Assembly (NCBI GenBank): GCA_005798855.1
Contig: SYIF01000003.1
Coordinates: 1 to 46,302, forward strand
From: Actinomycetota bacterium
GTDB lineage: Bacteria > Actinomycetota > Thermoleophilia > Gaiellales > F1-60-MAGs149
Direction of reading: 5' to 3'
DNA: 46,302 nt
In this document: piece after piece, positions 36,125 to 40,534 of the stretch
Layout of the letters: the number at the start of each line of letters is the position of its first letter
Position numbering within the stretch: position 1 is the first letter of the stretch
Translations under genes and position numbers: made by a program
Notes under the pieces: generated by a model
What the model saw: only the letters and a program-made list of their open reading frames with translations
Databases searched by the model: none
Told to the model about the DNA's origin: nothing

Positions 36125-37333
36125 TCAAGGTGACGATCGGTGAGCGTGGAGGCGGGCCGGCGAGAGCAGGCTGGCGCAGATCAAAAACAGCACCGCGGCG
36201 ATCGGGAAGCACAGCATTACGAGATCGAAGTTGCCCGTTAGGTCGCGCACACCGCCAAGTAGCGACGGCGCGAGAGCCGTCACTAGGTAGCCGAAGAACA
36301 GCATCATCGCGGCGGCAGCGCCTACGTCGAGGGTGCTATCGGCAACTTCGAGCGGCAGGCTCATGGCAAGCGTAAACATCGCGCCGTTCGCGAGTCCACC
36401 CAGCAACATCCAGATCTCGGCCTGCGCCGGTGCGACGATCAGCAGCACCGCGACTGCACCGATCATGAGACCCGTCACCTGCAGCAGGGTTCGCCGCGAG
36501 AAGCGGCGGCTGGCAGCGAGGGCAAGCAGTGGTCCGGGGATCATGCCGAGGTTGTAGAGCGCACCCAACCAGCCGGCGTAGGCGAGCGACGAGCCGTGCT
36601 CGACGTACGCTGCCGGCACCCAGGTGTTGATGCCGTAGTAGAGGGTGCCCATCAGTCCGAACTGCACGGCCAAGAGCCACACCACACCACGATGCAGGGG
36701 GAGGCGAGGGAACGCCGCGATCTCGTGCGCGTGGGAGACGCCACGCGTCAGGGCGAGCCAGGCGACGAGCATCACGAGACTGAAGGCCGAGTAGACGAGC
36801 ATCGTCGACTGCCAGCCGCCGAGCCAGAGGGCAATCGGGACGGCGAGGGCGGCACTGACGCCGGAGCTGATCTGAAAGCCCATCGCGTAGATGCTCGTCA
36901 CCATCAGGGGGTGGTCGGCGAAGCGCTCCTTGACGGCGACGACCATCAGCGTGTTGCCGACACCCATGCCAATGCCAATCAGCAGGGTCATGATCAGGAT
37001 GCCAGTCAGGCCTGGCACGAACGCGCGGCAGATGCCCGCCAGACCGATCAGTGCGACCGAGAGGCTGATCGCGTGGAGTGCCCCGATGTGCCCGGCGAGA
37101 ATTGGCGCAAGCGGGGAGAAGAGCCCAAAGCAGAGCACGGGGATCGTGACGAGCAGTCCGACCATGGCGTGAGACACGCCCAACGAGGTCTGAATCTCCG
37201 GCACCAGAGGCCCGATTCCGACGAGTTGTGGACGGTAGACGAGCGCGGCCACAAACAGACCAACCAGCAGTGGCACGCGGTCGCCAATCGGTTGAATCGG
37301 AAAGCGACTCGATGCCTGCTGGTCTGCTCCCAT
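36125..37333 (-). CDS. MFS transporter (CynX/NimT-like)
   Basis: 12-TM hydrophobicity pattern; RPQLVGIGPLVPEIQTSLGVSHAMVGLLVTIPVLCFGLFSPLAP. Confidence 0.85.
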   Translation of the reverse strand: MGADQQASSRFPIQPIGDRVPLLVGLFVAALVYRPQLVGIGPLVPEIQTSLGVSHAMVGLLVTIPVLCFGLFSPLAPILAGHIGALHAISLSVALIGLAGICRAFVPGLTGILIMTLLIGIGMGVGNTLMVVAVKERFADHPLMVTSIYAMGFQISSGVSAALAVPIALWLGGWQSTMLVYSAFSLVMLVAWLALTRGVSHAHEIAAFPRLPLHRGVVWLLAVQFGLMGTLYYGINTWVPAAYVEHGSSLAYAGWLGALYNLGMIPGPLLALAASRRFSRRTLLQVTGLMIGAVAVLLIVAPAQAEIWMLLGGLANGAMFTLAMSLPLEVADSTLDVGAAAAMMLFFGYLVTALAPSLLGGVRDLTGNFDLVMLCFPIAAVLFLICASLLSPARLHAHRSSP

Positions 37334-37390
37334 CGAGGCAGGATGGCAGAGCGAGCCTAGGTAGGCGACCCAGCACGGCAGACCCTCAAG

Positions 37391-38341
37391 CTAAAACGTC
37401 GGGGCCCTCGGGCTCCCACAATTGGCATACGGGTCGGGCACGAGTTGCCGCTGCAGGTCGTTCATCGTCAGCTGCCAATTTGGATTGTAGGGGTAAGGTG
37501 GTCCAGCAAATTCGACGCGGATGTCGGGGGTGACACCCGGACCGGGCGATGTGACGCGATAGCGATTGACTGTCGACTCGCCACTAAATCGCTGTCCCAG
37601 GAGCGTGGGGGCCTGCCGCTTCGGACCGATCTCGAAGCAGAACTGGCCGTAGGGACGGTTGGCGAGAAAACCATTGACGCGCCGCCATTGAAAACCACCG
37701 GCGGGGAAGCCGTAGTTCGAGTTGAGTGCGTCGAGATAGATGTTGCGTCCCTTGTCGTCGAGCGGCACACCTTGCGGCGTTGCCTGACCCACGCCGATCG
37801 GTTTGCCCTGCCAACTGTAGGTGCCAAAGAGGTGGGCGAACTTCTCCATCTTCGACCGCCCGTAGCGCGACCAGTCGCTAAACACGACGAGGTCGGCGAC
37901 GGGTCCACGCCAATGCGACAGTCGTATTTCGATTGAGCCTGTCGTGCCGCCATAGTTGAGGATCGACCGTTGCCACTGTTGGACGGCCCAATGGCTGCCG
38001 TCGCGCGCCGTGCAGGAGGCAACGATCAGCTTGGAGCCAGGAAATGCACCACCACGGTAGGGGCCGCAGGTGTTGCGAAAGGTCTGCCAATTGGCACCGC
38101 TCGAGCCCGTGCCGCCCGAGTAGTCGAGCAGCAGGCGGCCACGCGACATATTGACCGCACCCCAGGCGAGGATGTGCTGCGTCTGGCCATTCACGCGTAG
38201 GGTCAGCATCGCTACGCCTTGCTGGTTGACGGCGAGGTTGACTGGTCCCTGTGGGTTGCGCGTGATCAACGTGCTCGCCTGCGCAACGCCGGTAACGGCG
38301 AATAAGAAGACGAGTGTGAGTGGGAAAACTCGACGGCGCAT
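37391..38341 (-). CDS. secreted hypothetical protein with signal peptide
   Basis: MRRRVFPLTLVFLFAVTGVAQAS signal peptide; no domain recognised. Confidence 0.6.
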   Translation of the reverse strand: MRRRVFPLTLVFLFAVTGVAQASTLITRNPQGPVNLAVNQQGVAMLTLRVNGQTQHILAWGAVNMSRGRLLLDYSGGTGSSGANWQTFRNTCGPYRGGAFPGSKLIVASCTARDGSHWAVQQWQRSILNYGGTTGSIEIRLSHWRGPVADLVVFSDWSRYGRSKMEKFAHLFGTYSWQGKPIGVGQATPQGVPLDDKGRNIYLDALNSNYGFPAGGFQWRRVNGFLANRPYGQFCFEIGPKRQAPTLLGQRFSGESTVNRYRVTSPGPGVTPDIRVEFAGPPYPYNPNWQLTMNDLQRQLVPDPYANCGSPRAPTF

Positions 38342-38424
38342 ATACAGAAGACGCTATGGGACGTTCGATCTGACGTCAGCCATTTGGTGACGCGGGGTAT
38401 GCTTCCCGCCAACAGGAGAAGTTG

Positions 38425-39792
38425 ATGGAACGCACCGAGCTCAATCGCACACGACTCAACGAGCTGCTCGAACGTGAGCGCACCGTCGCCGCCGAGCGCA
38501 CGCCAACGTCGCGCGCACTCGCAGCCGAGGCGCAGGCGCACCTGATCGGTGGCGTCCCGATGCAGTGGATGGAGGTCTGGGTCGGCCAGCACGTGGTCTT
38601 CTTCGAGCGCGCCAAGGGCAACCGCATTGTCGACGTCGATGGCAACGAACTGATCGACTTCTGCCTTGGCGACACCGGCTCGATGGCGGGGCACTCGCCC
38701 GACGCGATGGTTGCGGCCGTGCAGCACCGAATTGGCGAGCTCGGGGGCGTCACGACGATGCTGCCGACCGAGGATGCGATCTGGGTTGCGGGCGAGCTTG
38801 CCCGCCGCTTTGGTCTGCCCAAGTGGACCTTTTCGCTGACGGCAACCGACGCCAACCGCTGGGTGCTGCGGACCTGCCGCCAGTTAACCGGCCGGTCGAA
38901 GGTGCTGATCATGAACTACAGCTACCACGGCTCCGTCGACGAGACAATCATTGCGCTCGAGAATGGCGTTCCGACGCAGAAGCCCGGCAATGTCGGGCCG
39001 GCCGTCGACCCAGCGGTGACGACGCGCGTCGTCGAGTTCAACGACCTTGCTGCGCTCGAGCGCGAGTTGGCGCACGGCGATGTGGCGTGCGTGCTGGCCG
39101 AGCCGGCACTGACAAACATGGGCATCGTCTTGCCCGACGCCGGCTACTGGGAGGAGGCGACGCGGCTGATCAAGGCGGCTGGCGCTTTGCTCGTGATCGA
39201 CGAGACGCACACGCTCTCTGCCGGTCCGGGCGGCTGCACGAAGGCCTGGGGTCTGCAGCCCGACATCGTCACGATCGGCAAGAGCATTGCCGGCGGTGTC
39301 CCGATTGGTGCGTATGGCGTGTCGGCCGAGATTGATGTCCAGATCCAGGGCGATCCCGATGGCGACTACGTCGATACGGGTGGCGTCGGTGGCACGCTCG
39401 CGGGCAACGCTCTGTCGCTGGCTGCGGCTCGCGGTACGCTCGAACACGTTCTAACCGACGAGGCTTTTGTGGGCATGTGCGAGCTCGGCGCCCGGATGCT
39501 GGCCGGCATGCGCGACCTTATCGAGCGGCACAACCTGCCATGGGTCGTCGAGGGGCTGGGTGCGCGGGCAGAATTCCGCTTCTGCGCCACGATGCCCGCC
39601 AACGGTGGCGCCTCGCACGATGCGCACGACGCCGACGTCGAGGAGTGGCTCCATCTCGTCACGCTCAACAACGGCATCCTGATCACGCCGTTTCACAACA
39701 TGTGCCTTGTCTGCCCCACGACTACGGCAGCCGATGTGGACCGGTTGCTCGAGGTGCTCGACGCGGCCGTGACCGAATTGCGAGCGGCCTAG
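38425..39792 (+). CDS. class III PLP aminotransferase (glutamate-1-semialdehyde aminomutase-like)
   Basis: DVDGNELIDFCLGDTGSMAGHSPDAMVAAV, LLVIDETHTL, PLP-Lys GKSIAGGVPIGAYG; ATG 38425 after AGGAG. Confidence 0.9.
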   Translation: MERTELNRTRLNELLERERTVAAERTPTSRALAAEAQAHLIGGVPMQWMEVWVGQHVVFFERAKGNRIVDVDGNELIDFCLGDTGSMAGHSPDAMVAAVQHRIGELGGVTTMLPTEDAIWVAGELARRFGLPKWTFSLTATDANRWVLRTCRQLTGRSKVLIMNYSYHGSVDETIIALENGVPTQKPGNVGPAVDPAVTTRVVEFNDLAALERELAHGDVACVLAEPALTNMGIVLPDAGYWEEATRLIKAAGALLVIDETHTLSAGPGGCTKAWGLQPDIVTIGKSIAGGVPIGAYGVSAEIDVQIQGDPDGDYVDTGGVGGTLAGNALSLAAARGTLEHVLTDEAFVGMCELGARMLAGMRDLIERHNLPWVVEGLGARAEFRFCATMPANGGASHDAHDADVEEWLHLVTLNNGILITPFHNMCLVCPTTTAADVDRLLEVLDAAVTELRAA

Positions 39793-39797
39793 CTGGA

Positions 39798-39836
39798 TCA
39801 ACTTTGCTTTGGGGTCAGACCCTTAAGCAAAGTTGA
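39798..39836. terminator. hairpin TCAACTTTGCTT-15 nt-AAGCAAAGTTGA (nested GGGT-CAG-ACCC)
   Basis: 12-bp perfect stem directly after the aminotransferase stop, between convergent genes; REP-like or terminator. Confidence 0.6.
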
Positions 39837-39899
39837 CCGCGTTTGCTTGCGGCACTCGACACGGCTGTGGCAGAATTGCGACCTGCCTAGATGGATCTG

Positions 39900-39930
39900 C
39901 TTTGCTTAGAGGTCTGAACCCAAAGCAAAG
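39900..39930. terminator. second, diverged copy of the hairpin (CTTTGCTT...AAGCAAAG)
   Basis: 8-bp core stem with outer GATC/GATC; ends next to the stop of the convergent gene at 39938. Confidence 0.5.
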
Positions 39931-39937
39931 TTGATCA

Positions 39938-40534
39938 TCAGACGATGTCGGGTGCGATCTCGGCGATCGTGTTGTCGATCAACTCTCGACGGCCGTGTTC
40001 TGTCTCGCGCCGCATCACACCGTTCTCGTCGACGCGGTACTGCGCAACCTCCATCAGGGGTGGCGAGTACGAGTGGATTGTGATGGCCGGCGAGCCCTCG
40101 ACGTGTGCAACGGAGTGGATGTACCCGGCTGGTCCTTCGCGGGTCACGCCCTCGCGCACCTCGACGTCAGACGAGCCGTGAGGGAGTCGCATCTGCTTTT
40201 CCATCACCACACCGTCAACACCGACCAGACCGACGCCAGAGATCGCGTGGTCGTGATAGCCCGTGCCCTGGCCCGGCATCCACATGATCAACCAAGTATC
40301 AACTCGATCATCCTCATACAAAAGGCGATAGCGGCGGCGCTCAGTATCGGCAACCACCATGGGGCGCCAGAGATCCTCGCGCGCGGCAACATCAGCCGAA
40401 AGCTGCACGAGTTGGGCGGTTGTGAGCGGTCCATCGCCCTCAGGCACGAGCGCGCCCACTGCCGCGAGCAGTTCGGCGGGCGGAGAAACCACCTCCGTCC
40501 AATCCTGGGGGGTGAGGGTATCTGTGGAAGCCAT
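39938..40534 (-). CDS. cysteine dioxygenase-family cupin protein
   Basis: YRLLYEDDRVDTWLIMWMPGQGTGYHDHAISGVGLVGV (HxH), GYIHSVAHVEGSPAITIHSYSPPL. Confidence 0.75.
   Translation of the reverse strand: MASTDTLTPQDWTEVVSPPAELLAAVGALVPEGDGPLTTAQLVQLSADVAAREDLWRPMVVADTERRRYRLLYEDDRVDTWLIMWMPGQGTGYHDHAISGVGLVGVDGVVMEKQMRLPHGSSDVEVREGVTREGPAGYIHSVAHVEGSPAITIHSYSPPLMEVAQYRVDENGVMRRETEHGRRELIDNTIAEIAPDIV

Follow-up and report, generated by a model that had tools for sequence, protein, structure and literature searches.

How did a second end of an aminotransferase gene come to lie in the gap between that gene and its convergent neighbour? In the 46,302-nucleotide stretch of Actinomycetota DNA analysed here (the window), a class-III aminotransferase gene (PRK07046-type transaminase; 38422–39792, plus strand, predicted start; Pfam Aminotran_3, 146 bits; NCBIfam NF005453, 608.9 bits against a cut-off of 425) converges with a cysteine dioxygenase type I family gene (39938–40534, minus strand; Pfam CDO_I, 44.7 bits). 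Between them are a hairpin (h1), a copy of the aminotransferase gene end, and a second hairpin (h2). The window's own genome (G000) is a 1.93-Mb draft of 142 contigs and is 72% complete.

Direct-repeat comparison places the functional 3′ end of the aminotransferase gene, with the bases up to h1, at 39742–39799 (copy 1, plus strand) and its decayed, non-genic counterpart at 39840–39897 (copy 2, plus strand). The source of copy 2 is the last 51 coding bases of the gene and a few bases past the stop codon. The whole direct repeat (39742–39836 and 39840–39934, offset 98) is 79% identical over 95 nt, a value inflated in its hairpin part by palindromy, since h2 agrees with the inverted h1 at 37 of 43 positions and with h1 read directly at 34 of 43. 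With the hairpin left out, copy 2 matches the gene end at 43 of 55 positions, compared to 29 of 55 for the best other site on either strand of the window, so that the gene-end copy of the original prediction stands, with its coordinates right. Its reading of the second copy in frame up to a stop codon is likewise confirmed: the gene ends in RLLEVLDAAVTELRAA and copy 2, which carries its own TAG at 39888–39890, in RLLAALDTAVAELRPA. Copy 2 lies outside any gene, downstream of the aminotransferase stop, and a TGA precedes the opening of its frame. Its sequence departs from that of the G000 gene at 11 of 51 bases, and from that of the gene in a sister genome, G009, at 9 of 51. The in-register homology begins at 39840. 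The proposed upstream likeness (GTGGACCG/GTTGACCG) is present, but at offset 96 rather than 98, and is thus out of register by 2 bases. Copy 2 has decayed and is probably a non-functional scar, with nothing to suggest a use.

The two hairpins have a different relationship. The "forward" REP/TIR-like repeat h1 (39796–39838, plus strand) matches the forward family consensus at 41 of 43 positions and terminates at GTTGAC, precisely at the start of copy 2. The GTTGACCG junction (39832–39839, plus strand) comprises the end of h1 and a possible 7-base microhomology, GTTGAYC, with the gene; the G009 gene has GTTGACCG at the homologous place. The "reverse" repeat h2 (39894–39936, minus strand) matches the reverse consensus at 39 of 43 positions and has the same outer junction as the hairpin in another sister genome, G006. 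Judged by sequence, h1 and h2 are related as an inverted pair and not as a direct duplicate, and this leaves unsupported the idea of a gene-specific hairpin copied along with the gene end without a change of orientation. Both are predicted to fold well as RNA compared to shuffled sequences (h1, -23.2 kcal/mol, z -6.5; h2, -18.1 kcal/mol, z -4.6), and the predicted DNA fold of the entire pair is -45.5 kcal/mol versus a shuffle mean of -20.9 kcal/mol. No T-run was found after either hairpin. REPs elsewhere affect mRNA ends, and by analogy the window hairpins may do so as well. An Rfam match of the pair to MIR8565 (39.8 bits, gathering threshold 136) was rejected, because a long and almost perfect hairpin will fit that model on structural grounds. 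Searches of plasmid records for the hairpin gave no match, and a literature search for GGGGTCTGACCCC returned no relevant paper.

The hairpins belong to a genome-wide palindrome family with consensus GATCAACTTTGCTTTGGGGTCAGACCCCTAAGCAAAGTTGATC, a GGGGTCWGACCCC centre and variable arms. A search of G000 with the window hairpin found dozens of further sites. At the sites that were read, the family is extragenic. Some copies form arrays or adjoin transposase genes, and inverted pairs with GTCAGAC in the first hairpin and GTCTGAC in the second are common. Doublets with the exact core number 53 in G009, 28 in G007, 25 in G002, 19 in G003, 16 in G006 and 5 in G000, versus 0 for a reversed-pattern control. 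In a set of 102 distinct pairs drawn from G000 and its sister genomes, the spacing between centres has its mode at 64–71 and a peak at 66–67, making the window's spacing of 98 an outlier. Eight three-hairpin arrays tandemly repeat a unit of spacer plus hairpin of 65–68 bases. Among the 102 pairs, one other besides that of the window has a spacer copying adjacent host DNA: in G009:C314 (L145, positions 490–620), the hairpins enclose a second copy of a 30-base flank that lies where an oxidoreductase-like reading frame begins (TTCCATCAGATCAGCGTAGTCGGAAATCAAC and CTCCATGAGACCAGCGTAGTCGGAAATCAAC). Spacer and flank agree there at 20 of 23 positions in register, compared to approximately 7 of 25 for other spacers and 0.26 for a cross-locus control. 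In both cases, the first hairpin's outer GTTG marks where the copy begins. Duplication of adjacent DNA together with a hairpin is thus a habit of this palindrome family. Two broader generalisations were rejected. Doublet spacers are not all copies of local flanks, as flank matches are at chance level except in the window, L145 and the three-hairpin arrays; nor do all long doublets (spacing above 79) carry gene ends, as the others tested (L148 and L176) do not. A second palindrome family, GACATGACAAGTGCGCACTTGTCATGTC, has 28 exact copies in G000 (one at G000:C137:15254-15281, L186), 14 in G005 and 9 in G009; one copy is close to a Y1_Tnp gene in G006:C84, and the Y1 gene of G005:C31 has a variant on both sides.

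The original prediction compared the hairpins to REP/BIME units, and sister genomes support this. Genes for Y1 (IS200-like) transposases (Y1_Tnp, PF01797) are present in 6 of 13 genomes of the genus, with hairpins of the window's arm type on both sides of those in G006:C16 and G009:C166. Other Y1 genes lie between hairpins that keep the centre but have the arms CTTCCTA, ATGTTCC, ATGCGAC or ATGTCAC, giving five arm types, each paired with its own Y1 gene. The proteins have the HuH and Tyr motifs (NHAHL and YVDLN) and score 37 bits for Pfam Y1_Tnp (cut-off 23) and 52 bits for the NCBIfam RAYT model NF047646 (cut-off 80); a MerR-like match at residues 222–249, a candidate for the C-terminal helix-turn-helix of TIRYT enzymes, is weak (21.5 bits, below the cut-off of 28.2). 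In the 72% complete G000 assembly, a search for a matching Y1 gene found none; the single weak Y1 gene there (13 bits, below cut-off) carries different palindromes. The matching gene may be among the quarter of the genome that the assembly lacks. The hairpins lack a GTAG/GTGG tetranucleotide at their foot and are flanked by GATCA...TGATC, and their core GGGGTCAG fits GGGGWSAS, the motif of TIRYT-associated repeats (Di Nocera et al. 2013, PMC3733652). On these motifs, they match RAYT/TIRYT repeats and not GTAG-type REPs. A further set of Y1 genes in the genus (L040, L136, L137, L142 and L143) has its own sort of adjacent palindromes. Examples are AGGCGACATTCTGGGCCCGGGCCCAGAATGTCGCCT on one side and a close variant on the other in G000:C23, and CAATCTGGATCCGGATCCAGATTG on either side in G007:C87. 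Many such Y1/palindrome systems may exist in parallel within the genus.

Comparison of the homologous gap in relatives shows how rapidly this locus changes. G003 has 3 bases between the stop codons and no hairpin; G005 has half a hairpin running into the end of the facing gene; G006 has a single hairpin oriented as h2; and G009 has a hairpin pair whose arms are CTTCCTAA and whose spacer is unrelated to the gene. Five related genomes thus have five states, and among them the gene-end copy is present only in G000. In G005:C3 (L080/L109), the half hairpin GATCAACGTTGCTGTGGGGTCAGACG is fused to the TCAGACG end of the facing gene, as if deleted at the shared GTCAGAC. In G006:C11 (L078), the region homologous to window positions 36921–38450 shares approximately 77% identity with G000 upstream of the aminotransferase gene, and identity is approximately 93% in and after the gene, a mosaic that points to recombination at the start of that gene. 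Four-fold divergence is 0.17 between G000 and G006 and 0.23 between G000 and G009. By parsimony, placing copy 2 at the stem of G000, G006 and G009 takes 26 steps versus 28 beside G000, a small difference over 60 bases. This deeper attachment implies either that the event predates the split of the three genomes and was followed by loss in two, or that the copy came from a relative or from elsewhere. The copied gene end is old and lineage-specific, in agreement with the original view that the event was not recent.

On balance, we consider it probable that the gap holds a REP-like palindrome doublet whose spacer is the scar of a tandem duplication, via slippage, of the gene end (approximately 58 bases) and its hairpin, followed by a second step. 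Tandem duplication at short repeats can arise by replication slippage. Here, a new strand on which the hairpin had just been copied, ending in GTTGAYC, would slip back to the GTTGACC of the gene approximately 96 bases upstream and recopy the gene end plus hairpin. We favour slippage because eight arrays duplicate spacer plus hairpin, because host DNA was copied twice, and because both of those copies start at the outer GTTG. An extra step is needed since a simple tandem duplication predicts hairpins of the same orientation, yet h1 and h2 are inverted. The usual inverted pair could have been restored if a collapse later took place between adjacent hairpins of a pair already present or, alternatively, if one palindrome, which has few positions unlike its reverse, flipped. 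Further points count against this account: the 2-base offset (CG) breaks the register of the microhomology, copy 2 attaches deeper in the tree than the G000 tip, and the flank-copy cases are a small sample (n = 2). A more doubtful extension, which we regard as unlikely, is that new doublets of this family can arise in place, when one hairpin and the host DNA beside it are duplicated in tandem; the spacer would then start out as a copy of the adjacent gene, and the window and G009:C314 would be two such births caught before spacer decay had hidden their origin.

An alternative to slippage is a recombination scar, in which DNA imported from a related species was joined illegitimately at the hairpin, leaving resident and imported gene ends in tandem. 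Copy 2 agrees with the G009 gene end at 42 of 51 bases, against 40 of 51 for its own gene, and has LDTAVAELR in common with G005, the G006 locus is itself a mosaic, and copy 2 with h2 retains the outer junction of G006. However, an end like copy 2 was present in none of the genomes examined, and the G000 flanks look uniformly G009/G006-like. Moreover, 4 of 16 amino acids differ between copy 2 and G009, more than between orthologues at a similar DNA distance, which suggests non-coding decay. Import is also unnecessary for the flank-copying doublet of G009. Overall, we regard it as unlikely here. We give still less credence to a copy made by the transposase, in which a Y1 enzyme would have cleaved beyond the hairpin, taken the gene end along and joined it beside an existing hairpin. 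The Y1 genes of sister genomes with the same hairpins fit this, as does the break at the outer GTTG of the hairpin in both flank-copy cases, and REP enzymes described so far cut on the 5′ or the 3′ side of the hairpin (PMC8266576). Yet this enzyme group has no known cleavage site, a matching gene was not seen in the 72% complete G000 assembly, and slippage explains the tandem order without an enzyme.

The two remaining explanations carry much less weight. That the metagenome assembly joined strain variants at a repeated hairpin is a concern for a fragmented and incomplete draft in which the hairpin family is repeated, but the exact repeat common to the junction is short (approximately 14 bases), copy 2 is identical to no strain or sister sequence found, and G009, an independent assembly, has a comparable structure; an artefact is very improbable. 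Selection of the second element as a back-up bidirectional terminator, as the original prediction had proposed, is scarcely credible and was left unsupported. A convergent gap with strong predicted hairpins would suit such a role, but both hairpins lack the T-run, sister genomes manage at the same gap with half, one or no hairpin, and the family also occurs elsewhere, in pairs, in arrays and beside transposase genes.

The locus is therefore ordinary in kind, being a transposase-associated palindrome doublet, and unusual in detail, with a gene end as spacer. REP/REPIN spacers are variable; where a spacer is a copy of a neighbouring gene and can be dated, it provides a natural record of array growth. 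The locus also shows the instability of one convergent gap, and it calls for caution in annotation, as a reading frame in a gap that resembles a gene end can be a repeat-driven scar.

Three known systems come close. As in slippage at short repeats, the duplicated unit is bounded by a few homologous bases next to a hairpin able to stall replication, but here the inverted second hairpin requires an extra step. REPINs and BIMEs with RAYT (Nunvar 2010, PMC2817692; Bertels & Rainey 2011, PMC3116915) are likewise extragenic inverted palindrome pairs of preferred spacing whose palindromes flank a Y1 gene, and tandem REPIN clusters including flanking sequence have been reported in SBW25 (Bertels & Rainey 2011, PMC3116915); they differ from the present family, which lacks the GTAG/GTGG foot and reaches 52 of 80 bits for the RAYT model. 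TIRYTs and TIRtrons (PMC3733652) share Y1 HuH transposase genes bracketed by GGGGWSAS inverted repeats, which are dispersed or occur as dimers and clusters, some of them self-complementary. In contrast to these, the genus described here has a large doublet population (53 with the exact core in G009), several arm types and, in two doublets, a spacer made of host DNA.
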